Below, in pieces: positions 1 to 10,685 of a stretch of DNA of 10,685 nucleotides; position 1 is the first letter of the stretch, and the number at the start of each line of letters is the position of its first letter. The position numbers and the translations under genes are program-made. The notes below the pieces were generated by a model. That model was not told the origin of the DNA. It was given only the letters and a program-made list of their open reading frames with translations, and made no database searches. The DNA lies in NCBI GenBank assembly GCA_903901395.1, contig CAIUQW010000094.1:1-10685 (forward strand). Direction: 5' to 3'. This stretch comes from an uncultured Chlorobiales bacterium. Lineage in GTDB: Bacteria; Bacteroidota; Chlorobiia; Chlorobiales; Chlorobiaceae.

Positions 1-1259
1 AGGGTTTTCAGATCGAGAGACCAGACCCCGATATGGGCGTTTTCAAGAGCGAACTCCACTTCGGCCTTGTACTTTTTCAGTTCGCACTCTCGTGCTTTCT
101 GTTCGGTAATATCTCTGGTGACTCCCATGAGCCGGACAAGCTTGCCCTGTTCGTCCCGTATCACCACGCCGGTGTCGGAGAGATAGCGTATCTGTCCGTC
201 GTTTTTGCGGCGGATGCGGTATTCCACATCGAAGTGATCGAGCGTCGTACGGAGCTTCTGATAGAGTTGTTCGAGCGCCGCGCGATCATCCGGTACAACA
301 TGCTCGATGAAGCGCAGGAAGTTCCATTCCGGCAAGAGAGTGTCATAGCCGAAAATGCGGCAGTGTTCCAGAGAATTGCGGCAGACTCCGTTCTGGAAAT
401 TCTCATCCCACGGGCCGATATGGCAGCTTTCGAGCGTGTAGTTCCATTGTTGCAGCATCTCCTGATAGCGTTGCCCGGTCTCTTTTTCATCCGTGACATC
501 CCGCACCATGCCGCACCATGAGACGGGCGCGCCGCTCTCGTTGCAGCGCGTGCTCCAGGTGGTGGACAACCATCGAATGTTTCCGTCCGCACGCCGGATG
601 CGGAAATCGTACCGCAAAAGATTTTTTGAGGAGGCGTGCCGCTCCCGGATAAATTTGATACAGCCGGGCCGATCCTCTTCGATGACATGCGCCAGAAAGG
701 TCTCTTCCGACCATTCGACCGTGTTCGGCTCATAGCCGAAAAGCCGGTCATGACCCGGGCTGCGGATGACCTTTCCGGTCTGGAGGTTCAAGTTGAGGAT
801 GGCTGCCGACACCTGTTCGAGCGCGGCATTGGTGCGCTCCAGAACTTCCGTGCTGCCGAGTTCATCGCTTTTTTTTGCGGTGATGTCGCGTGAAATGACG
901 AGCAGTTGAGTGGCCGAGCTGTCTGGCGCATGAACCGGATAGAGATCGAGCCTCAAAAGCTTTTCGCCCAGCTTCTCCTCGATGCTCAACGATGTACCAA
1001 TGCTCAACACCGCTTGCACCTCGGATTTACGCTGTTCTCCGCTCCCTTTCGGGTAGAGGCTGCTGGCTTCCATCAATTCATAGATGCTCGCGCCTATGCA
1101 CTCCCGGAGCGATTTGCCGAAATGCCGGGCCAGCCGGAGATTCGCATCGAGCACGATTCCTTCAGAATCGATGATGTATACGGGTTCAGGGTGGGTTTCG
1201 AAGAGCGTGCACACCAGGCCAAAAGAGGAATGGCTGTCGATATGGGAGCGTTGCTTCAT
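1..1259 (-). CDS. Multi-PAS sensor protein, 5' part only (runs off left edge)
   Basis: This is the N-terminal 419 residues of a soluble PAS-repeat sensor, probably the input half of a histidine kinase or cyclase whose output domain lies outside the window. PAS1 covers about residues 17-127 (YIIDSEGIVLDANLRLARHF, ending SRDITAKK). PAS2 covers about 148-259 (LFGYEPNTVEWS, ending RDVTDEKE). PAS3 covers about 274-389 (IFGYDTLLPEWNF, EYRIRRKNDG, ending TRDITEQK). PAS4 begins near 402 (ENAHIGVWSLDL). PAS2-4 have the PAS_3 look with D-[IV]-T linkers. There is no signal peptide or membrane segment, so it should be cytoplasmic. The start at 1259 (MKQRSH) is chosen because PAS1 follows directly. An in-frame ATG at 1358 would add 33 arginine-rich residues that look non-domain, and neither start has a clear ribosome site. 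PAS2 and PAS3 resemble the sixth PAS of the kinase at 6105-9545, so the genes share ancestry. The ligand is unknown. Confidence 0.9.
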   Translation of the reverse strand, partial: MKQRSHIDSHSSFGLVCTLFETHPEPVYIIDSEGIVLDANLRLARHFGKSLRECIGASIYELMEASSLYPKGSGEQRKSEVQAVLSIGTSLSIEEKLGEKLLRLDLYPVHAPDSSATQLLVISRDITAKKSDELGSTEVLERTNAALEQVSAAILNLNLQTGKVIRSPGHDRLFGYEPNTVEWSEETFLAHVIEEDRPGCIKFIRERHASSKNLLRYDFRIRRADGNIRWLSTTWSTRCNESGAPVSWCGMVRDVTDEKETGQRYQEMLQQWNYTLESCHIGPWDENFQNGVCRNSLEHCRIFGYDTLLPEWNFLRFIEHVVPDDRAALEQLYQKLRTTLDHFDVEYRIRRKNDGQIRYLSDTGVVIRDEQGKLVRLMGVTRDITEQKARECELKKYKAEVEFALENAHIGVWSLDLKT

Positions 1260-1437
1260 TCGATTTCTGATTCGCTGTACTTGTTTTGACGTGCCGTCTC
1301 GATAGCGCGATCGACACGGAATTCGGCGGAGCGATAGAGCACTCTCGATACTTCGCATTTGCGAATATAGCTCTTTGCACCGATCTTTATGAGGAGATAA
1401 AGGTGATTTACCCGAGTTCCGGCTTCTCTGGCAGTTG

Positions 1438-1634: not shown

Positions 1635-1838
1635 ATGGCTTTGATGGATCCTGCGAGCTGGATGTTCGTGCTGGTCGTGAGCATCGTCTGCTCGATTGCG
1701 TGCGCGGTTATTTCGATGAAGAAAGGGTATGGCGGCGCTCAGGTGTTCGCCTGGTTCATCGCGGGTTTTGTGTTCAGCGTGTTCGCCCTGATCGCCATCA
1801 TTCTCGCCCCACATTCGCATGAGGCGGGGATGGAGTAG
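1635..1838 (+). CDS. Small two-helix membrane protein, hypothetical
   Basis: This encodes a 67-residue protein with two predicted membrane helices: about residues 9-27 (WMFVLVVSIVCSIACAVISM) and about 38-58 (FAWFIAGFVFSVFALIAIIL). A short basic, glycine-rich loop (KKGYGG) joins them, and the tail is short and polar (APHSHEAGME). The layout of a helix, an RG/KG-rich turn, then W-F-x-x-G-x-x-F and a second helix is common in small bacterial inner-membrane proteins of unknown function. By the positive-inside rule the loop would face the cytoplasm. ATG 1635 is used; ATG 1644 is an equally possible start three codons in. No strong ribosome site is visible. The gene stands alone, diverging from the sensor gene on its left, and a terminator-like inverted repeat follows at once. 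No specific function can be given. Confidence 0.7.
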   Translation: MALMDPASWMFVLVVSIVCSIACAVISMKKGYGGAQVFAWFIAGFVFSVFALIAIILAPHSHEAGME

Positions 1839-2024: not shown

Positions 2025-2320
2025 TTACGCAAAATTAAGAAATTCTTTAAAAAGAAATTCTTTTAAAGAAGGTGATATTTTGTTGGGAAATGCATGACCT
2101 CTTTGTGATAAACTGAAAAAAATATGATATTGATATCTTGATATTTATTTTCATTTCAGTAGAATATTGTATACCATCATCACAGGTATAATCAAATCCG
2201 TAATCAATAGATCAACAACTCCAGAAAGCGTATTTCGATGCGAATAGAAGGGCGTAACCATGTTATGAAAGTAATACTTTTACAGTTTTTTTTGATGAAT
2301 TTTATCGACTGCTAACAAAA
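2025..2320 (-). pseudogene. Receiver-domain remnant of a hybrid histidine kinase
   Basis: One minus-strand frame, different from that of the kinase ORF at 2312-3097, reads as a response-regulator receiver from about 2320 to a TAA at 2027-2025. It is broken by three stops (2282-2280, 2153-2151 and 2147-2145). The recognisable pieces appear in the right order. First is ILLAVDKIHQKKL, where the acidic N-terminal motif ILLVDDE belongs. Then comes SGVVDLLITDLIIPVM, the phospho-acceptor strand with its Asp kept. Then follows SLSQRGHAFPNKISPSLKEF, where the conserved Lys-Pro and the last helix belong. The order and spacing match a normal receiver of about 115-120 residues. It lies right behind the HATPase domain, so the ancestor was a hybrid kinase and this domain is dead. 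The 15/16-bp tandem repeat at 2037-2067 lies inside its last helix. Confidence 0.72.
2037..2067. repeat. 15/16-bp tandem direct repeat
   Basis: AAGAAATTCTTTAAA (2037-2051) is followed at once by AAGAAATTCTTTTAAA (2052-2067). On the minus strand it translates as KEFLF-KEFLN in the last helix of the receiver remnant, so it looks like a small slippage duplication in the dying gene. Each unit is also nearly palindromic. Confidence 0.7.
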
Positions 2321-3097
2321 TATTTTGATAACTTTATCGTATAGACTAATATTGGTTTTTGATTTCTGGGATATATTCTGAACTTTATTTTGAAGAGGCA
2401 ATATAATGCTCACAGATGTTCCTTTTCCTGCCGTACTGTTAACGATGATATTTCCTCGATATTGCTTTACGATGCCAGATATTGTTGAAAGGCCGATCCC
2501 TGAAGCCGTTGTGCGATTTTTCGTTGTAAAAAAAGGATCGAATATATTTGGCATAACCGACGCCTCGATTCCGGTGCCATTATCGCTGATCGTTAACCGG
2601 GCATAATCGCCTTCAGCCATACTCAGCCGTTTCACAAGCTCTCGTTCGAGTGTTACGGTTTTTAATTCTATCGTCAGAATTCCTTCATCCCGTATGGCAT
2701 CCTGCGCGTTCAAAACAAGCCCGAAGAGGACTTGCCTCAGCTTTTCGATATTCATCTCCACGCGAGGAGATGAGCCATCATAATATCGCTTAATTTCGAT
2801 ATTATTTCTTATAGCGCTACGCATTAAAGGTTCGATATCTGATATGGCTTCATTCAAATAGATATATTTTAAATTTAACAAATGTGAACTGTCATAATCA
2901 TATAATTGATGAATCAGATCAGCAGCTTTGTGAGTTGATAGAGATAAGCGCCGGAGGTATTCGCTTGATTCATCGTTTTTGTTGCAGCGTTGACATAAAA
3001 TTTCTGAATATCCAGAAATGAGCATCATTGTGTGGTTCAGTTCAAGAGCGAGCCCACTGAAAATGGGATCGATGAACTCATTTGTTTTGTTTTGCAT
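2312..3097 (-). CDS. Histidine-kinase core lacking its phospho-acceptor His (surviving ORF of a decayed hybrid kinase)
   Basis: This 261-codon frame holds a HisKA-like segment (about residues 8-70) and a HATPase_c domain (about 115-234). The ATP-binding boxes are intact: N box with Asn130 in LVLNAQDAI, G1 with Asp172 in SDNGTGI, F box FDPFFTTK at 186-193, G2 around SGIGLS at 200-204, and a last glycine box GKGTSVSIILP. The H box is not intact. Related kinases read GIAHDFNNxLxxIxGYSEL, and this one reads GLALELNHTMMLISGYSEI, so the acceptor His is Leu18; the nearby His22 stands at an Asn position. The frame stays open upstream of ATG 3097 to 3211 and includes the end of a PAS domain (YRVGIVHNVNKR), so this ATG is internal to the ancestral protein. 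With the PAS and receiver pieces around it frameshifted, this is most likely a pseudogene fragment. An expressed ATPase-only protein is the less likely alternative. Confidence 0.8.
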   Translation of the reverse strand: MQNKTNEFIDPIFSGLALELNHTMMLISGYSEILCQRCNKNDESSEYLRRLSLSTHKAADLIHQLYDYDSSHLLNLKYIYLNEAISDIEPLMRSAIRNNIEIKRYYDGSSPRVEMNIEKLRQVLFGLVLNAQDAIRDEGILTIELKTVTLERELVKRLSMAEGDYARLTISDNGTGIEASVMPNIFDPFFTTKNRTTASGIGLSTISGIVKQYRGNIIVNSTAGKGTSVSIILPLQNKVQNISQKSKTNISLYDKVIKIFC

Positions 3098-3564
3098 ATC
3101 TATGTATAAAATTTTTTTACAATGATATTTTTTGTCGATTCGTTTATTGACGTTGTGAACAATACCGACACGATATTGGTTACCTCTCCAATACCGTTGA
3201 TGATAAGACGGTCATGACATCGGAAATAACAGCAAAGCCATCTTTTCTGATCTGCTCGTACTCGCTCATATCGAATCTGCCAGGTAAATCACCGGAAAGA
3301 ACGATTCTGATGCGCTTATCATGCAACGCTTCATATTTTTACTGCCGTCTCGGGTGTAAAAGTATCACACACGCATTGTTGTTTTTTTTCTTTCAAAGTT
3401 AAGCCAATGAGTGTGAGAAAAGCGTAGCTATGCCTGATTTTATGAGCATCATTGGACCAAAGAACATCACCAGCACTTTCCAGAACAAGTTCAAATGAAG
3501 AATTTAGCTCGAAAAGATTTATATGCTGATTTTGTGCTGCAAGTATGCGAAATGAATTAAAAAA
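3098..3564 (-). pseudogene. Frameshifted PAS domain, N-terminal part of the decayed hybrid kinase
   Basis: Three minus-strand frames in succession spell one PAS domain. Piece 1 (3564-3331) reads LFELNSSFELVLESAGDVLW and later DTFTPETAVKI, then stops at TGA. This is the familiar opening of a PAS domain (LVLESAGDVLWE.D, ending F.TPES). Piece 2 (3338-3180) reads KYEALHDKRIRIVLSGDLPG, then SEYEQIRKDGFAVISDVMTV, which matches the EYR.RRKDGS core strand, and ends at TAA. Piece 3 (from 3211 into the ORF ending at 2312) reads YWRGNQYRVGIVHNVNKRID, the usual VVGIVRDITERK exit strand and linker. None of the pieces has a usable start codon of its own before 3097. The order and combined length fit one domain of about 120-130 residues, so at least two frameshifts have hit it. 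The gene's true start is not visible. Confidence 0.72.
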
Positions 3565-3832
3565 TTATCTTCGATTAAGAAGTAATGATGCAATGTTGCT
3601 TAAATTTTATTCGAAAGTTGCATTGCAATAATAGACAGAATTGCAATCATAATATCGCGAGATAGTTGATATATTTATGTGATTCTAAATTATTCAAATT
3701 GAATCGTCTCAAGCTCTCGAGATCAAACAGCGAAATTATGTGAATCAATTGAGGCGCAATAAGTGATATATTGCTGTAAATGTCTAATCGATTAAGAATG
3801 ATATATTTTTACCAAAGTTTAAATTTTTATCA
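3565..3832. other. AT-rich intergenic stretch with a possible further relic
   Basis: No gene with a start codon is visible. On the minus strand 3808-3647 is open for about 53 codons without a methionine and reads leucine-rich text (IIHIISLFDLESLRRF-like around 3720). It could be older N-terminal sequence of the decayed kinase or chance in AT-rich DNA. Nothing else is supported. Confidence 0.3.
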
Positions 3833-4264
3833 TTAAATTTTTTTTATTGAATGCACATAGTTCTCTTTAAAAAAATGGCTTTTTATATGAGATACAGCGA
3901 CCTTCATTCTTTCAGAAAATGAAAATGACTTACGGAGTTTTGCAAGAGCGATGATCGCGAAACCGATCCCAATTAACTCTATGCTTGATGGCTCAGAAAG
4001 ATCAACATTCTTGACGTCGTTGCGATTAGCTTTGGTTTTTGCTGTGTTGTCGCTATTCCTCAATCCATTGCTGGCGGAGACGGTAGAACTATTACCACGA
4101 ATGACAAGCTGGGAGTCTATGCTTCTATTGTTAAATGCGGTAATGTTGCTGCATGTATTTTTGGCGTGTGTGTTATAATCCTGCTTTAGGTTGATCACTT
4201 CTGCAAAACCTGGAGTGCTCCAGAAAAGCGGCAGAAAAGCAAAAAAAAATAATTTCGTTTTCAT
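3833..4264 (-). CDS. Putative secreted protein with a degenerate PEP-CTERM sorting signal
   Basis: This 143-residue protein has a clear Sec signal peptide (MKTKLFFFAFLPLFWSTPGF, then AE), likely cut near Ala21. A polar, Asn/Ser/Thr-rich body of about 65 residues follows, of no known fold. Near the C-terminus Leu89-SEPSS-IELIGIGFAIIALAKLRK (residues 89-112) has the PEP-CTERM layout: a Pro-Ser motif, one hydrophobic helix, then a basic cluster. In genuine PEP-CTERM proteins this signal is read by an exosortase and usually ends the protein. Here the first Pro of PEP is Ser, and 31 further residues (113-143, basic and aromatic) follow the basic cluster. Either the stop was lost or the signal is decaying. 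The start at 4264 is fixed by the signal peptide. It lies downstream of the KTSC-like gene on the same strand, 288 bp away. No exosortase gene is in the window. Confidence 0.6.
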   Translation of the reverse strand: MKTKLFFFAFLPLFWSTPGFAEVINLKQDYNTHAKNTCSNITAFNNRSIDSQLVIRGNSSTVSASNGLRNSDNTAKTKANRNDVKNVDLSEPSSIELIGIGFAIIALAKLRKSFSFSERMKVAVSHIKSHFFKENYVHSIKKI

Positions 4265-4552
4265 TAGTGTACTGCTTGGCTGGTGAAGAAAGAGTTATTG
4301 TGAAAAAAACTGAAAAACGTTGATTTTCTGTCGCTTCAGTGTTGTTGCATAGCATCACCCATATCGATTCTCGCAGCCTCTTACATATACGTATCTTCGC
4401 AGAGCATCGTGGGTGTTGGGAGGTGCGGGATTTTTTAATGCCCTGCGAAGTATAACGTATAAGAAAGTCGAACCGCTTTAATCTTTAGATTACAGAAGAG
4501 TTTCCTCTGTTCATTATATGCTGTTTTTTTATTTTATTATTATTTAATAAGC
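4265..4552. other. Intergenic stretch dominated by a large inverted repeat
   Basis: No gene is seen. The stretch holds the long inverted repeat at 4386-4461 (separate entry). It also has a small palindrome, TAATCT-TT-AGATTA, at 4479-4492, between the KTSC-like and PEP-CTERM-like genes. Confidence 0.4.
4386..4461. repeat. Long imperfect inverted repeat / RNA hairpin
   Basis: The arms 4386-4407 and 4438-4461 pair over 21 bases. GCAT pairs with ATGC, CTTCGCAG (4395-4402) with CTGCGAAG (4443-4450), TAT with ATA, and TATACG with CGTATA, with one mismatch and two single-base bulges. The 30-nt loop contains GGGAGGTG on the plus strand (CACCTCCC on the minus) and a run of six T. It could be a terminator for the KTSC-like gene upstream on the minus strand, a leader structure for the PEP-CTERM-like gene (about 120 bp from its start), or a small mobile-repeat remnant. 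Confidence 0.55.
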
Positions 4553-4786
4553 TTATAATTCTCTTTCTGTTTTGAAGAGTCTCTTATTTTTCATAATGAA
4601 GCTCGCCAAATTTTTTCCGCTTTTTGCGTATCTGATCATTCGCCTTACATTGAGCCATCCCGAGTCGCAGTATCGGTATGTTTGGATGTCTCCATTTATA
4701 AATCTTACGCTGATCCAGTCTTTTCCAAACGCATAGGCGTCTACAGGTGAAAGCACATTAATGTTTTTATACGGAGTAAAAATCAT
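4553..4786 (-). CDS. Small KTSC-like domain protein
   Basis: This encodes 77 residues. The core, about residues 10-66, fits the KTSC domain pattern. A first strand near VLSPVDAYAF is followed by WISVRFINGDIQTYRY (the L-x-V-x-F-x-N-G-x-x-Y-x-Y signature), then a helix with VRRMIRYAKSGKNLASFI (the A-x-S-x-G-x-x-F segment) and a basic tail. KTSC domains occur alone in many small bacterial and phage proteins and at the C-terminus of some lysyl-tRNA synthetases. Their exact role is not settled, with nucleic-acid binding suspected. There is no signal peptide or membrane helix. ATG 4786 is the first start in the frame and has only a weak TAAG before it. A 10-bp palindrome AGTTTAAACT (4790-4799) sits right upstream. 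The neighbours are AT-rich accessory genes. The family call rests on pattern only. Confidence 0.6.
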   Translation of the reverse strand: MIFTPYKNINVLSPVDAYAFGKDWISVRFINGDIQTYRYCDSGWLNVRRMIRYAKSGKNLASFIMKNKRLFKTEREL

Positions 4787-4789
4787 CTT

Positions 4790-4799
4790 AGTTTAAACT
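4790..4799. promoter_or_regulatory. 10-bp palindrome just before the KTSC-like gene
   Basis: AGTTTAAACT is a perfect palindrome ending 4 bases upstream of the start codon at 4786. It could be a binding site, but in DNA this AT-rich it may be chance. Confidence 0.25.
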
Positions 4800-4802
4800 T
4801 AA

Positions 4803-5041
4803 AGGCGCAGTAAATACAAAGTGTATTATTTTTATGATCTTTTGCTTTACTCTTTTTTGACTTCGTAAAATGCTTCGTTTTAATTTAATGCTGATGATAA
4901 TTTATAAAAAAATTATAATAATTGCAATAATTGCGATGAAAAATATTTGGAATTGTGAGAAATACATATTTTGACTCTATAAAAACACTTCATTGTATAT
5001 GGGCTATGCGGGATCAAAACCATCTTTGTTTAAAAGCTTCT
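4803..5041. repeat. Diverged direct repeat, copy A
   Basis: This copy aligns by eye with 5167-5464 from AGGCG through GTGTA...TTTTT.TGATCT.TTG, TAATTTATA.AAAAA.TATAATAA, CAATTGCGAT and ACTC..TAAAA.AC, to a final TTTGTTTAA.AAGCTTC. It is shorter than copy B, so an indel is present. On the minus strand it holds a 21-codon ORF (4967-4902) of hydrophobic residues, MYFSQFQIFFIAIIAIIIIF plus L. There is no other coding evidence. Confidence 0.55.
4902..4967 (-). CDS. Possible 21-residue hydrophobic peptide (copy A)
   Basis: This short ORF encodes one membrane-spanning stretch (FIAIIAIIIIFL) ending in TAA. In the diverged copy B the same frame gives FIAIVVFIIFFL and a stop at the same aligned position, so hydrophobic content and stop are shared by both copies. 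Small duplicated hydrophobic peptides can be type I toxins or regulatory membrane peptides, but no ribosome site or antisense RNA is demonstrated. AT-rich DNA often gives such text by chance. Confidence 0.2.
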   Translation of the reverse strand: MYFSQFQIFFIAIIAIIIIFL

Positions 5042-5166
5042 TTGTAAATGCGATGATCTGTTATCTCTCTGAGTCGCCGAGGCTCTACGATATCTTGCTT
5101 ATATGACATGTATGCGCGTAAAAAAATGCGTTAATTTGGTATTGTGGGGTGTCATCGCTCTGGGGT

Positions 5167-5464
5167 AGGCGTATAATTAGAGTGTAATTCTTTTTGTGAT
5201 CTCTTGTATTGCTCTCCGTCGATTTTTTCAGACACTTTTTTTTGATTTAAATCTACTGGTAATTTATAGAAAAAATATAATAAATACAACAATTGCGATA
5301 AATCGTGTTCTGAATCGTGAAAAGATTACAGTTACACTCGGTAAAAGTACGTCGCCATATATGCTTGATATGTTTGACCGCTCAATTGTCATGAGGCGGT
5401 GAGGGAGGTGGATCGGGAGAACTCGCTTCAGCGTGAAATTTGCTGACAATTTGTTTAAGCTTCA
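5167..5464. repeat. Diverged direct repeat, copy B
   Basis: This is the second copy of the segment at 4803-5041, about 364 bp away, with many substitutions. On the plus strand the GTG-started frame 5196-5402 gives a 68-residue protein, but copy A is broken by stops in that frame. On the minus strand the shared frame ends at 5264 in a hydrophobic tail (see 5264-5392). The frame kept by both copies is the minus one. Confidence 0.5.
5264..5392 (-). CDS. Possible short membrane peptide (copy B)
   Basis: From ATG 5392 this frame encodes 42 residues: a polar start MTIERSNISSIYGD and a C-terminal hydrophobic helix (RFIAIVVFIIFFL) ending at the stop shared with copy A. A TTG at 5449 could extend it by 19 residues. 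Real expression is uncertain; the only support is the aligned helix and stop in the neighbouring diverged copy. Confidence 0.25.
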   Translation of the reverse strand: MTIERSNISSIYGDVLLPSVTVIFSRFRTRFIAIVVFIIFFL

Positions 5465-5499
5465 TAAGACATAATAAAATGGTCACTTAGGCTTAATCT

Positions 5500-5835
5500 T
5501 TGGAAAAATGCTTCTTCCCGGACAGTTGTCGCGACGCATCGCTCGGAGTGATTGTGCTACATGATATTCAAGAATCGCTGATCTATCTCCTTTCGGGATC
5601 ATTCAGTCGAACGGTGGATTTGGAAATCCGTCTCCCGCTCAAGATGATTCTTGTCGGGTTGAAAACTCACCATATTAATATGGCGAGCTTGTTTTGGCAT
5701 TCATCGCAGTATTTTCGTGTTGTTAAGGTAGTTGGGCGAGAGTGCAATGCGCCGGGGACGTGTCAGTTGCATTGGTGGGGGGGATCGCGACTTTTCAAAC
5801 TCGTGGATGATGACAGTTGCCAAGTATCGCCGTGA
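5500..5835 (+). CDS. Unassigned ORF, possibly a pseudogene
   Basis: This frame opens with TTG (5500) and runs 111 residues to TGA. Its base composition is clearly richer in G and C than the DNA on either side. No family is recognised for the whole. One stretch, SRTVDLEIRLPLKMILVG (about residues 37-54), resembles the end of the response regulator at 9584-10324 (KKDDLKIRLPLKTIHGVGYI), the last strand of an OmpR-type winged helix. After it the text (HINMASLFWHSSQYFRVV, CQLHWWGGSRLF) matches nothing known to me. This could be a shuffled relic of a response regulator, a real orphan gene, or an open frame by chance. There is no clear ribosome site. A 28-bp interrupted palindrome lies within it at 5663-5690. 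Confidence 0.35.
   Translation: MEKCFFPDSCRDASLGVIVLHDIQESLIYLLSGSFSRTVDLEIRLPLKMILVGLKTHHINMASLFWHSSQYFRVVKVVGRECNAPGTCQLHWWGGSRLFKLVDDDSCQVSP
5663..5690. repeat. 28-bp interrupted palindrome centred on CCATATTAATATGG
   Basis: A perfect 14-bp palindrome, CCATATTAATATGG (5670-5683), is extended by CTC/GAG and AA/TT pairs, with two single mismatches, to 28 bp. It sits inside the unassigned frame 5500-5835. It may be an operator, a cruciform or a hairpin. Confidence 0.6.
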
Positions 5836-6104
5836 GCAAGAGCACCAACGGAGCTAGCGTCTGTTTTTGTCTATCGGTATATCAGATAGAAGTGATATCG
5901 TTACTTGCTCGAAGAATTCTTCTAATTATGGTATTTTACTCAATAATGAAACTTTAGCATCAGTAATGGTACTTTAGTGTAAAAAAGGCGTGTATTTGTC
6001 TTTCGTGAGTGATAATCGAGGCTCATGTAATAAAAACACCCATGCAAGCAATAAAAAGAGACGTATAAAAGGCTTTTTAGCAGCCGTCCTAACAGTATTT
6101 TCCG
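5836..6104 (+). promoter_or_regulatory. Upstream region of the kinase/regulator operon with palindrome and iterated motif
   Basis: No gene is seen here. GAAGAATTCTTC (5911-5922) is a perfect 12-bp palindrome. Right after it come three copies of a 12-mer: ATGGTATTTTAC (5928-5939), ATGAAACTTTAG (5946-5957) and ATGGTACTTTAG (5966-5977), starting 18 and 20 bp apart, close to two helical turns. Such spacing suits side-by-side binding of a regulator dimer, and the OmpR-type protein of this operon is the obvious candidate. The motif block lies about 130 bp before the ATG at 6105. No convincing -35/-10 pair can be assigned, and no ribosome site is evident before 6105. Confidence 0.45.
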
Positions 6105-9100
6105 ATGCCGATAAGTAATTTCATCATTAATGAGACGTCAGATAACGACCACCCAACTCTGTTTTCGTTACTTGAATCGCTTCCTGATCCTGCCATCATC
6201 ATAAAACCGGATGGCCTGATTCAGGTTGTCAATGCACATTTTGCCTCTCGCATAGGAAAAACGCCGAAAGCGTGCGTTGATCACTCTATATACGACCTGC
6301 TCAACTCCGATTTCCATTGTTTGCCGCCTGCCGAGGCTCTTGTAAAACAGTGCGCTTCGGCACTCCTGTCCGGCAAAAGCAGCGTCTTCCAAGACGGCAG
6401 TCATGGCTGGAGCGTGATGTTTAATCCGATTCGAGTAGATTCTGGAGCAGTGACAAGCCTCTTTGTCTCTTTTCAGGAGATTGTTCCGCCATGCAAAAGC
6501 ATTGAGGAAAGCAGGAGCGCCAGTCAGGAAAAACTGGCCGCGGCGTTAGACGGAACGGGAGCAGGCGTCTGGGAGTGGTCGCTGAAAACCGGTGAACTTG
6601 TCTGCTACGGTGATGTCGGCTCGATATTCGGCAGTGAAAAAAACAAAATGAGCCTTTCCCTCGACCGTTTCAAAGAGTCGATCTATCCGGATGATCGTGA
6701 ATACAGTTCTTTATTGATCTCGGAGGCTCTCAACACAAAGCGTGCTCTCGATATTCAATTCAGGGTCGTCAAGTCTGACGCTTCCGTTCACTGGATCATG
6801 ATGAGGGGCAAACCGCTTTGCGGCACCAATGGCACGTTGGATCGTTATTCAGGAGTTCTTCTCGATATAACCGAACGCAAACAGCTTGAGGAGGAGCTGG
6901 GCAAAAGCAGACTGATGATGGCGCAGAGCCTCAAGGCTGCGCGTGCCGGCATATGGGAAAAGGATTTGAAGAACGATACCCTGTATTGGTCTGATTCCAT
7001 GTGGCCACTCTTTGGTCTTGACGTGAGCCAGCAACCACTCACCTTCGCGCTCTGGAAGAAAGTGCTTCATCCTGAAGATCGTGATAAAGCGATCGAGAGC
7101 GCGGCGCAGGCCATCAGCGCAGGAGCTGAAATGAACGTGGAGTACCGGATATGTCGAGCAGACGGATCTGTACGATGGTTTATGTCGAGGGGTATGCCGG
7201 TATGGAATGATGATGGTAGTTTCGACCGCTATCTTGGCACAGTCATTGACATTTCCGAACGGAAACTTCTGGAGCGGGAGCTTCTTGAAAGCAAAAGCGT
7301 GTATGGTTACGCCCTCAAAGCGGCACGCGCTGGTGTCTGGGAATGGGATCTGCAAACTGACGAGAACATCTGGGACGACGAGATGTGGCCATTGCACGGG
7401 CTGACATTCGACAAGGGACTCAATCCTTCCTTCAGGCTCTGGGCGGATTCTATTCATCCCGATGATCGGGAGGTGGCCATCTGGGCCGTCACTGCCGCTG
7501 CCCGGCAGAAGCGCGAATTGAATGTCGAATACCGTACGATTCATAAGGACGGTTCCATTCACTGGCTCATGTCGCGCGCCCAGCCAAGATATGACAAGAC
7601 TCGCAATGCCGTTTGTTATATCGGGACGGTTATCGAGATTACCGAACGGAAAATTGCTGAAATAAAACTCGCTGAAAGCAAGGTCAGGTTCAATTTCGCT
7701 CTTGAAGTAACCGGCGCGGGCATCTGGGAGTGGGATATCAGAACCGATCGTCTCTTCTGGTCCGATCAGATATGGATACTCTACGGTCTGGAACCGCAAG
7801 GCAAGATTGCATCGCACAAACTCTGGAAAATCCATGTCCATCATGAAGATCGCGATTTGACCTTCCAGACCATCATGTCTGCATACTCGCGTCGTGTGGG
7901 TTTCACTGTCGAGTACCGCGTCTGCCATCCTGATGACTCCATTCGCTGGCTGATGTGCCGGGGTGTTCCGTTGCAATCACAACACGAGTCTTCAGGCAGC
8001 TATCTCGGTATTATCATGGACATAACCGAGCGCAAACGGTCAGAAGAAGAAAAAAGTAAAAGCCAGAAGCAGCTCAATCTGGTGATCGAACAGGGCGATA
8101 TTGGCGTCTGGACTATCGATCTCAGGGACTTCAGCGCACAGCGTACGCTCCAGTATGCGCGTATTTTCGGCTACGACTCGGTCGAGTCGGAATGGTCGCT
8201 GGAAGCGTTTCTCGAGCATGTGGTTCCCGAGGAGCGCCAAACCATCAGCCAGAAGATCAGGCAATGCTGCAAAAAACATCTGAATCATGCTTTTGAGTGC
8301 CATATCCGTACAGTCGACCAGCGGTTGCGATGGATTTGGGTGTTTGGCACGTTTAACTATGACACAAGCAACAGAACCTATTATCTCTCCGGAATTGTTC
8401 AGGACATAACTGTCCGGAAGCAGGCCGAACTGCTGCTCAAGGAGAGCGAGCAGAAATTCAGGAACATCTTTGAATTTTCACCGGTCGCGATTGGCATCGC
8501 CGATAACCGGGCAGGAGAGCTTTTCGATGTCAATGCCTCCTGGCTCAGACTCTTCGCCTGTTCAAAAGATGAGGTGATCGGCAAACAGCTTGGTGATTTT
8601 GGCATGTTTTTCAATGTCGAAGATCATCACAATATCATGTTTGATTTACGGGAGCACGGTCGGGTTTCGAACCGGCAGCTCGAACTGAAAAACCGCGCAG
8701 GCAAGACAATCACCGTGCTTTTTTCCGCCGAATCGATCACCATTACCGGTGAGCGTAACATGCTGCTGATGCTGAACGATATTACCGTACAGGAGCTTCA
8801 GCAGGCAAGCATCAACCAGCTCGAGCAGGCGGTAGCCGAGCGAACGGAGCAGTTGGAGGAGGAGGTTCAGCGTCTGAACCGTTTTCTCAGCATGATTTCC
8901 CATGAATACCGTACGCCACTGGCGATTATTCGCGGCAATCTGGATTTTATCGTGCTGAAACATAAAAGCGGCGATTATTCGCTGCAGCGCGAAATCGACA
9001 AAATCAAACAGGCTATTGACCGGCTGGTGGAGGTGATGGAGGTTTCGATTCAGGACAGCCGCCTCAAGGAGGCGAGAGAAGATTTGATCGTGACCAACTT

Positions 9101-9545
9101 TCAGGTTGAACCGGCGATTATGTCGCAGATCGAATCGTTCCGCGCCATGTGGCCTGAAAGAACGATTCGCTATGCCGGTAATGTCGATGGAGCGGAAATC
9201 TTCGGAGAGCAGGGGCAGTTCGGCATGGCCATCTTCAATCTGCTCGATAATGCCAGGAAATACTCCCCGCCGGTCTCACTGATCGAACTGGAGTGCCGGA
9301 TTGAAAACGGCGAGGTGATTATTGTCATACGAAACGAGGGAAAAAGCATTTCCAGCGCCGAGTGCAGCGAGCTTTTCGAGAAGTACCGGCGAGGCTCAAA
9401 TGCAGCCAACACGGGCGGCGCGGGGCTTGGCTTGTGGCTCGTCAGGGATATCGTCGAGCACCATCATGGCGCGGTAACGCTTCGTGGAATCAAGACAGGA
9501 GTCGAGGCGATCATCACTTTACCTTTGGTCAAGAGCAAAGTTTGA
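6105..9545 (+). CDS. Seven-PAS sensor histidine kinase
   Basis: This 1146-residue kinase lacks a signal peptide and membrane helices, so it should sense in the cytoplasm and phosphorylate the regulator encoded 38 bp downstream. PAS1 is at about 17-125. Five PAS_3-type domains follow, with their core Trp at 156, 284, 412, 541 and 669, and exit linkers DITERK 254, DISERK 382, EITERK 511, DITERK 639 and DITVRK 767. PAS7 is at about 785-895 (FRNIFEFSPVAIGIA). A short coiled coil follows at about 905-928. HisKA has the acceptor His933 in FLSMISHEYRTPL. HATPase_c has the N box Asn1049 (NLLDNARKY), G1 box IRNEGKSI (1075-1082), F box LFEKYRRG and G2 box GGAGLGLWLV (1104-1112). The G1 Asp is Asn1077, a change also seen in some active CusS-like kinases. 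No ribosome site is clear before ATG 6105, but PAS1 fits this start. The signal sensed is unknown; no haem- or flavin-binding motif was identified. Confidence 0.96.
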   Translation: MPISNFIINETSDNDHPTLFSLLESLPDPAIIIKPDGLIQVVNAHFASRIGKTPKACVDHSIYDLLNSDFHCLPPAEALVKQCASALLSGKSSVFQDGSHGWSVMFNPIRVDSGAVTSLFVSFQEIVPPCKSIEESRSASQEKLAAALDGTGAGVWEWSLKTGELVCYGDVGSIFGSEKNKMSLSLDRFKESIYPDDREYSSLLISEALNTKRALDIQFRVVKSDASVHWIMMRGKPLCGTNGTLDRYSGVLLDITERKQLEEELGKSRLMMAQSLKAARAGIWEKDLKNDTLYWSDSMWPLFGLDVSQQPLTFALWKKVLHPEDRDKAIESAAQAISAGAEMNVEYRICRADGSVRWFMSRGMPVWNDDGSFDRYLGTVIDISERKLLERELLESKSVYGYALKAARAGVWEWDLQTDENIWDDEMWPLHGLTFDKGLNPSFRLWADSIHPDDREVAIWAVTAAARQKRELNVEYRTIHKDGSIHWLMSRAQPRYDKTRNAVCYIGTVIEITERKIAEIKLAESKVRFNFALEVTGAGIWEWDIRTDRLFWSDQIWILYGLEPQGKIASHKLWKIHVHHEDRDLTFQTIMSAYSRRVGFTVEYRVCHPDDSIRWLMCRGVPLQSQHESSGSYLGIIMDITERKRSEEEKSKSQKQLNLVIEQGDIGVWTIDLRDFSAQRTLQYARIFGYDSVESEWSLEAFLEHVVPEERQTISQKIRQCCKKHLNHAFECHIRTVDQRLRWIWVFGTFNYDTSNRTYYLSGIVQDITVRKQAELLLKESEQKFRNIFEFSPVAIGIADNRAGELFDVNASWLRLFACSKDEVIGKQLGDFGMFFNVEDHHNIMFDLREHGRVSNRQLELKNRAGKTITVLFSAESITITGERNMLLMLNDITVQELQQASINQLEQAVAERTEQLEEEVQRLNRFLSMISHEYRTPLAIIRGNLDFIVLKHKSGDYSLQREIDKIKQAIDRLVEVMEVSIQDSRLKEAREDLIVTNFQVEPAIMSQIESFRAMWPERTIRYAGNVDGAEIFGEQGQFGMAIFNLLDNARKYSPPVSLIELECRIENGEVIIVIRNEGKSISSAECSELFEKYRRGSNAANTGGAGLGLWLVRDIVEHHHGAVTLRGIKTGVEAIITLPLVKSKV

Positions 9546-10417: not shown

Positions 10418-10685
10418 TCAATCACTCAAGACCTCCGTGATTGCCTCGGCAAGCTTGTTGAGCTTTACCGGTTTTTTCAGCAGTTTGCGCAGCCCGTAGC
10501 GGCTGAGCGACTCATAGTTGTCGATTGTTTTGCCAAATCCGGTCATCAGAATCATTTTGAGCTTCGGATTAAGCGCTTGCAGATTTCGCGCCAGTTCGAT
10601 TCCAGTCATCTCCGGCATGGTGAGGTCAGTGATAACCAGGTCGAAGGCATCTGGATCCTTGCGGAACTCGGCAAGTGCCTCGACA
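10418..10685 (-). CDS. Receiver domain, C-terminal 88 residues (gene runs off right edge)
   Basis: This minus-strand frame enters from the right edge and ends at TGA 10420-10418. It shows the last three quarters of a receiver: the phospho-acceptor Asp in FDLVITDLTMPEMTG, the conserved Thr in ILMTGFG, the Lys-Pro in LLKKPVKLNKL, and a last helix AEAITEVLSD. The N-terminal acidic pair and everything before it lie outside the window. The frame is open at the edge, so the ATG at 10618 is internal and not the start. Receivers of this LVITDLTMPEMTG / KPV type that close the protein are typical C-termini of hybrid histidine kinases, but a single-domain CheY-like regulator cannot be excluded. It converges with the OmpR-type regulator gene across 93 bases. 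Confidence 0.9.
   Translation of the reverse strand, partial: VEALAEFRKDPDAFDLVITDLTMPEMTGIELARNLQALNPKLKMILMTGFGKTIDNYESLSRYGLRKLLKKPVKLNKLAEAITEVLSD

Follow-up and report, generated by a model that had tools for sequence, protein, structure and literature searches.

The minus-strand stretch 3543-2030 of the contig analysed here is, with high confidence, a pseudogene of one PAS-HisKA-HATPase-receiver hybrid histidine kinase, the orthologues of which are whole in related green sulfur bacteria. Since the phospho-accepting histidine has been lost and the reading frames are broken, it very probably no longer acts as a sensor kinase. The window, i.e. the whole stretch of DNA that was analysed (10,685 nucleotides), is the entire contig C94 of a draft genome of 2.53 Mb in 457 contigs, which is 77.8% complete. 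This genome encodes the FMO antenna protein family (PF02327, E 5.5e-219), found in none of 14 control genomes; we take FMO to be a marker of green sulfur bacteria, and its presence agrees with the assignment to that group in the original prediction.

Orthologues and gene order

A search of 61 genomes (the own genome and 60 relatives) with the protein encoded by 2312-3097 identified five close orthologues, all from the same genus, in the genomes designated G015, G020 and G010 (54% identity), G014 (46%) and G017 (44%), the next best match being 39% identical. The orthologous proteins of G015 and G020 comprise 524 aa, that of G014 528 aa and that of G017 684 aa, and the G020 protein contains the Pfam domains PAS, HisKA, HATPase and Response_reg. 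The features of the window are as follows.

3..1358, minus strand: multi-PAS kinase, truncated at the contig end; in synteny with G015 and G020
1635..1838, plus strand: small conserved, probably membrane protein, downstream of the kinase remnant; 83% identical to the G020 copy
2030..3543, minus strand: remains of one PAS-HisKA-HATPase-receiver hybrid histidine kinase; collinear orthologue tblastn matches and one frameshift-aware path over 3510-2030
3337..3543, minus strand: PAS remnant, first part (orthologue residues 1-73); tblastn and frameshift-aware path
3172..3332, minus strand: second part of the PAS remnant (residues 74-127), broken into two more frame pieces; frameshift-aware path
2312..3097, minus strand: 261-aa open frame, leftover HisKA-HATPase core; ORF list and Pfam, 53, 54, 52 and 46% identical to four orthologues
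3044..3046, minus strand: H-box position, with Leu in place of the phospho-accepting His (residue 169) of the five orthologues; H169L, invariant column
2381..2884, minus strand: HATPase segment (residues 223-390); no frameshifts or stops, N-, G1- and G2-box residues kept, dN/dS not significantly raised
2030..2333, minus strand: receiver remnant, with four of the eight frameshifts and both stops, a fifth shift lying at its border (2335); frameshift-aware path
3833..4264, minus strand: small protein that ends in a PEP-CTERM-like tail; 27-33% identical to its syntenic copies in G010, G015 and G020
4553..4786, minus strand: small conserved protein; syntenic in G010, G015 and partly G020
6105..9545, plus strand: multi-PAS kinase of 1146 aa, intact, which marks the edge of the locus; 75% full-length identity to the G015 copy

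The intact kinase of G015 (locus L016) and that of G020 (L017) have the neighbours seen in the window, with the multi-PAS kinase and the small conserved protein on one flank and the PEP-CTERM-like short protein, another small protein and the second multi-PAS kinase on the opposite flank. The G010 locus (L018) has the small proteins as well as the second multi-PAS kinase in common with the window; the first multi-PAS kinase was not found beside its orthologue. In G014 and G017 the kinase orthologue sits among other genes, and neither the small proteins of the locus nor bactofilin were found in the stretches read, the G014 orthologue being near a contig end. The window copy has a long branch in both trees (0.79-1.02 vs 0.21-0.27 for G010), and its grouping with G010 received support of only 53 and 48% in the two trees.

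The 67-aa product of 1635-1838, probably a two-helix membrane protein, has no Pfam match and is conserved better than the other proteins compared at the locus; the opposite strand is also open there. Family matches of the PEP-CTERM-like protein were all below cut-off, and the protein of 4553-4786, for which KTSC-like serves as an informal label, has no Pfam or NCBIfam match. The interval of about 1.3 kb between this gene and the 1146-aa kinase (4787-6104) contains small ORFs only and has no Rfam match; the corresponding stretch in G020 holds an ORF that was named transposase-like by eye (L017:12225-13451). At 10418-10684 on the minus strand, a second receiver-like fragment of 88 aa is cut off by the end of the contig; in tblastn it matched the receiver portions of other kinases.

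Reconstruction of the decayed kinase

As originally predicted, 2312-3097 on the minus strand is the only normal-looking gene of the region and its only kinase-like open frame (261 aa). Its product matches HATPase_c (E 1.3e-18), and HisKA remains below cut-off (17.2 vs 26.9 bits). The proposal that the flanks on the same strand spell the missing parts in order was borne out by tblastn, in which the G015 orthologue matched 3510-3337 in frame -3 (41%), 3359-3210 in frame -1 (50%) and 3169-2036 in frame -2 (41%), and the G014 orthologue extended the first piece to 3543, starting from its residue 1, so that the upstream end initially placed at 3564 was approximately right. A frameshift-aware alignment of a profile of the five orthologues against the window yielded one continuous path from 3510 to 2030, corresponding to residues 12 to 517 of 524, so that all four domains of the hybrid kinase are present as homologous sequence, in order and on one strand. 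The attribution of the pieces to a single ancestor is thus upheld by intact 524-aa orthologues that are collinear with the remnant through three frames and have the same neighbouring genes; the kinases of G015 and G020 each align in order as one full-length subject, and the PAS pieces and the core are matched by the same five kinases (those of G010, G014, G015, G017 and G020) rather than by unrelated proteins.

Each flank was also scored alone in the frameshift-aware profile alignment against 200 dinucleotide shuffles, none of which reached the observed score. The PAS flank scored 189 (shuffle maximum 35, opposite strand 26), the receiver flank 91 (32 and 20) and the PAS-HisKA linker 46 (31 and 15). 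Both the predicted PAS pieces and the predicted receiver are therefore real, the latter with its Asp codon (within LLITDLIIP) at 2198-2196 on the path. Pfam searches with single flank pieces matched nothing at E <= 1 for any of four pieces (of six listed initially, one was trimmed at its stop and the two shortest, of about 20 residues, were left out); the flank pieces are recognisable only through orthologues.

The best path contains eight frameshifts, at about 3333, 3209, 3171, 2335, 2303, 2235, 2177 and 2148, and two stops, at 2265 and 2065. Three of the shifts cut the PAS domain and five cut or border the receiver. Frame changes had been anticipated, and they are real; their number, given as at least three, falls short of this count. 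The stops interrupt the receiver as proposed. The motif SPSLKEF, suggested to be the last receiver helix, is present, in another frame than that of the path near 2065, and an additional shift may take the place of the stop in this last stretch (read from the sequence, unscored). The window copy has no continuous reading frame, Leu occupies the H-box position at which all five orthologues carry the phospho-accepting His, and the copy combines several disabling lesions with an intact orthologue at the same locus in relatives. The loss of the catalytic His within the open core and the unevenness of decay along the gene are additions to the original prediction. As an RNA element the region was rejected, with no matches at the Rfam gathering thresholds.

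Uneven decay and the fate of the HATPase domain

The principal alternative is that the open frame is a retained, shortened gene for an ATP-binding (HATPase) protein that lacks the phospho-accepting His, sensor and receiver and is kept by selection for another use, e.g. to partner other kinases or compete with them, which we consider unlikely. Its more specific form, in which a hybrid kinase was stripped to a bare ATP-binding domain and selection keeps the orphan HATPase in a new role, for instance to bind or inhibit other components of this kinase-rich locus, is likewise unlikely. In favour of retention, an uninterrupted stretch of 836 bases out of 1481 is free of lesions (P = 0.003 under uniform placement), the ten lesions being confined to about 650 bases and avoiding the open core. 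The predicted ATP-binding HATPase part has the N-, G1- and G2-box residues, N130, D172, G174, G176, G200 and G202 being invariant in the window and four orthologues. A precedent is provided by RcsD-Hpt, a domain reported to have outlived the frameshift of its signalling gene (PMC10191623).

Substitutions follow a similar pattern. The five orthologues have 186 invariant columns, of which 65 are changed in the window (including H169 to Leu), i.e. 27 of 59 in PAS, 17 of 31 in HisKA, 9 of 67 in HATPase and 12 of 29 in the receiver, and the difference between HATPase and the remainder (56/119) likewise argues for retention (Fisher 2.5e-6). In leave-one-out controls with the other genomes, changes numbered 1-12 in PAS (of 60-71 columns), 0-29 in the core (of 95-124) and 0-8 in the receiver (of 29-37). 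The long-branched G017 changes to a similar extent as the window in the core (29/124 vs 23/95), which weakens the case for retention, and less in PAS (12/71 vs 27/59).

Selection was assessed with a codon model in which synonymous branch lengths were shared; the segment borders were set after the site table was known, and the resulting p-values are therefore nominal, which counts against retention. The dN/dS of the window branch relative to background was 2.31 outside HATPase and 1.21 within it (p 0.0004). By segment, dN/dS reached 0.33 in PAS vs 0.14 in the background (p 2e-7), 0.49 vs 0.14 in HisKA (p 7e-10) and 0.38 vs 0.22 in the receiver (p 0.003), while HATPase alone, at 0.215 vs 0.173, was not significantly relaxed (p 0.18), as retention would have it. 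When the other five genomes were in turn made the foreground, p ranged from 0.06 to 0.67, the lowest value (G017) being in the opposite direction. Six variants (two tree shapes, G017 dropped and three segment choices) gave p 0.0002-0.0016 and HATPase ratios of 1.09-1.58, the 1.58 deriving from the model restricted to the open frame and speaking against retention. HisKA, the dimer-forming part, is the most relaxed segment, and partner binding through HisKA is therefore unlikely to have been kept. No clear ribosome-binding site was seen by eye before 3097, an absence that says little since the neighbouring genes likewise lack one. Every segment remains far from a dN/dS of 1 over the whole window branch, which indicates that the gene remained functional during a large part of the time since it diverged.

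Base composition differs in the same direction, with 28% GC in the receiver remnant vs 39-41% in three relatives and 41% in the HATPase segment vs 39-44%; the latter, similar to the relatives, is in keeping with retention, and the fall in the receiver is as expected of unselected DNA drifting towards A+T. Even decay since one inactivation would not show a nearly normal HATPase and lesions that avoid the open core. Either the HATPase part kept a role longer than the rest of the gene or it still has one.

Origin of the frame changes

It is extremely improbable that the frame changes stem from errors of assembly or sequencing in a draft that is presumably metagenome-derived (457 contigs, 77.8% completeness). 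The genome is fragmented and incomplete, and a contig scan with the core alignment found no independent assembly of the species; among the best 80 of 558 confirmed stretches, all at most 35% identical and belonging to distant kinases, there was no green sulfur record. However, the eight shifts and two stops are concentrated in about 650 bases beside a 1146-aa neighbour that aligns unbroken to its G015 orthologue, which makes sequencing error unlikely, and the other neighbouring kinase (3..1358) also aligns unbroken to its G015 orthologue over 429 residues. Such errors, moreover, neither change invariant residues across PAS and the receiver (39 of 88 columns) nor push the GC content of the receiver to 28%.

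In G010 (L018:6120-7707), the kinase is split into a 406-aa kinase (6487-7707) and a 142-aa receiver (6120-6548), which overlap by 62 bases in different frames; this is a second, milder break at the same kinase-receiver joint. A single lesion shared by G010 and the window was considered and rejected, given that the frame offset from kinase to receiver is 1 in G010 and 2 in the window. Natural gene fission or programmed frameshifting, by which separate sensor, kinase and receiver proteins would be made from overlapping frames, can draw on the G010 arrangement as a parallel but is scarcely credible for the window, where no fragment equals a whole domain (three shifts cut PAS, five cut or border the receiver and two stops lie inside it), the offset shows a split other than that of G010, and the phospho-accepting His is lost.

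Probable loss of the associated bactofilin and course of decay

A bactofilin gene lies near the kinase in G015 (L016:5598-6161), G020 (L017:10928-11491) and G010 (L018:9067-9630). Among the 21 genomes of the genus (own genome included), exactly these three, which are those with the syntenic kinase, have a bactofilin over the Pfam cut-off; weak matches below cut-off occur in G006 and G008. No bactofilin was detected in the own genome, an absence that is firmer for the interval at the kinase locus and uncertain elsewhere since the genome is 77.8% complete. A search of both strands of 3601-6110 for remnants of bactofilin and winged-helix genes gave best scores of 28-37, against maxima of 37-40 in 20 shuffles and positive controls of 113 and 199. 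The winged-helix gene lies between the PEP-CTERM-like and bactofilin genes in G020 (L017:10422-10733, with HTH_34) and G010 (L018:8555-8935). It was detected neither in the window nor in G015 (no match at E 0.01), and its absence from the window is uninformative because G015 also lacks it. The presence of kinase and bactofilin together in three genomes and their joint loss in one suggest, without proving, a common pathway.

With no His for autophosphorylation and neither sensor nor receiver in frame, the phosphorelay presumed in the relatives cannot run in the window copy, and since the accompanying bactofilin gene is also gone, the pathway was probably dismantled as a unit. For the pseudogene, the most likely course is that the lineage lost its need for this signalling step, whereupon signalling would have been lost with PAS, H-box and receiver and the associated bactofilin deleted, while HATPase may have held out longest, coming under relaxed selection later than the rest or never. 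The 261-aa frame is the part of the wreck that is still uninterrupted. As originally foreseen, an annotator would see one small kinase gene there; annotation would name a living 'small kinase' at the site of a dead hybrid kinase that only its orthologues reveal. Should the uneven relaxation be real, the locus offers a worked case of domains of one signalling protein losing selection at different times. Overall, this is a well-documented pseudogene, and titles and abstract openings covered by a literature search contained no description of the locus.

Comparison with known systems

The closest counterparts are the same-genus hybrid kinases of G015, G020, G014 and G017, which belong to the same gene family, have the same domain order and are 41-54% identical in the core, those of G015 and G020 also having neighbouring genes in common with the window. 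They are open throughout, in contrast to the window copy with its eight shifts, two stops and missing phospho-accepting His. The split kinase and receiver of G010 are orthologous to the window copy and likewise broken between HATPase and receiver, but both halves are whole and open and their frame offset is another.

Among solved structures, the best match by sequence is 5idj ('Histidine kinase', E 1.1e-30), and CckA is among the nearest (5idm, E 2.7e-25). The NCBIfam CckA models match far below their equivalog cut-offs (142.3 vs 1000 and 134.4 vs 1000 bits); the window gene was thus rejected as a CckA equivalog at the curated cut-off. DivL-type pseudokinases are functional kinases in which a different residue replaces the His. 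As in DivL (4q20, E 6.5e-5), HATPase is kept and the His lost in the window, but DivL is long and intact, whereas the window gene has broken sensor and receiver parts. The report on RcsD-Hpt describes a single frameshift mutation, with both a small protein and full-length RcsD produced (PMC10191623). The RcsD-Hpt case resembles the window gene in that one domain survives from a frameshifted signalling gene, and differs from it in having one frameshift and reported products.
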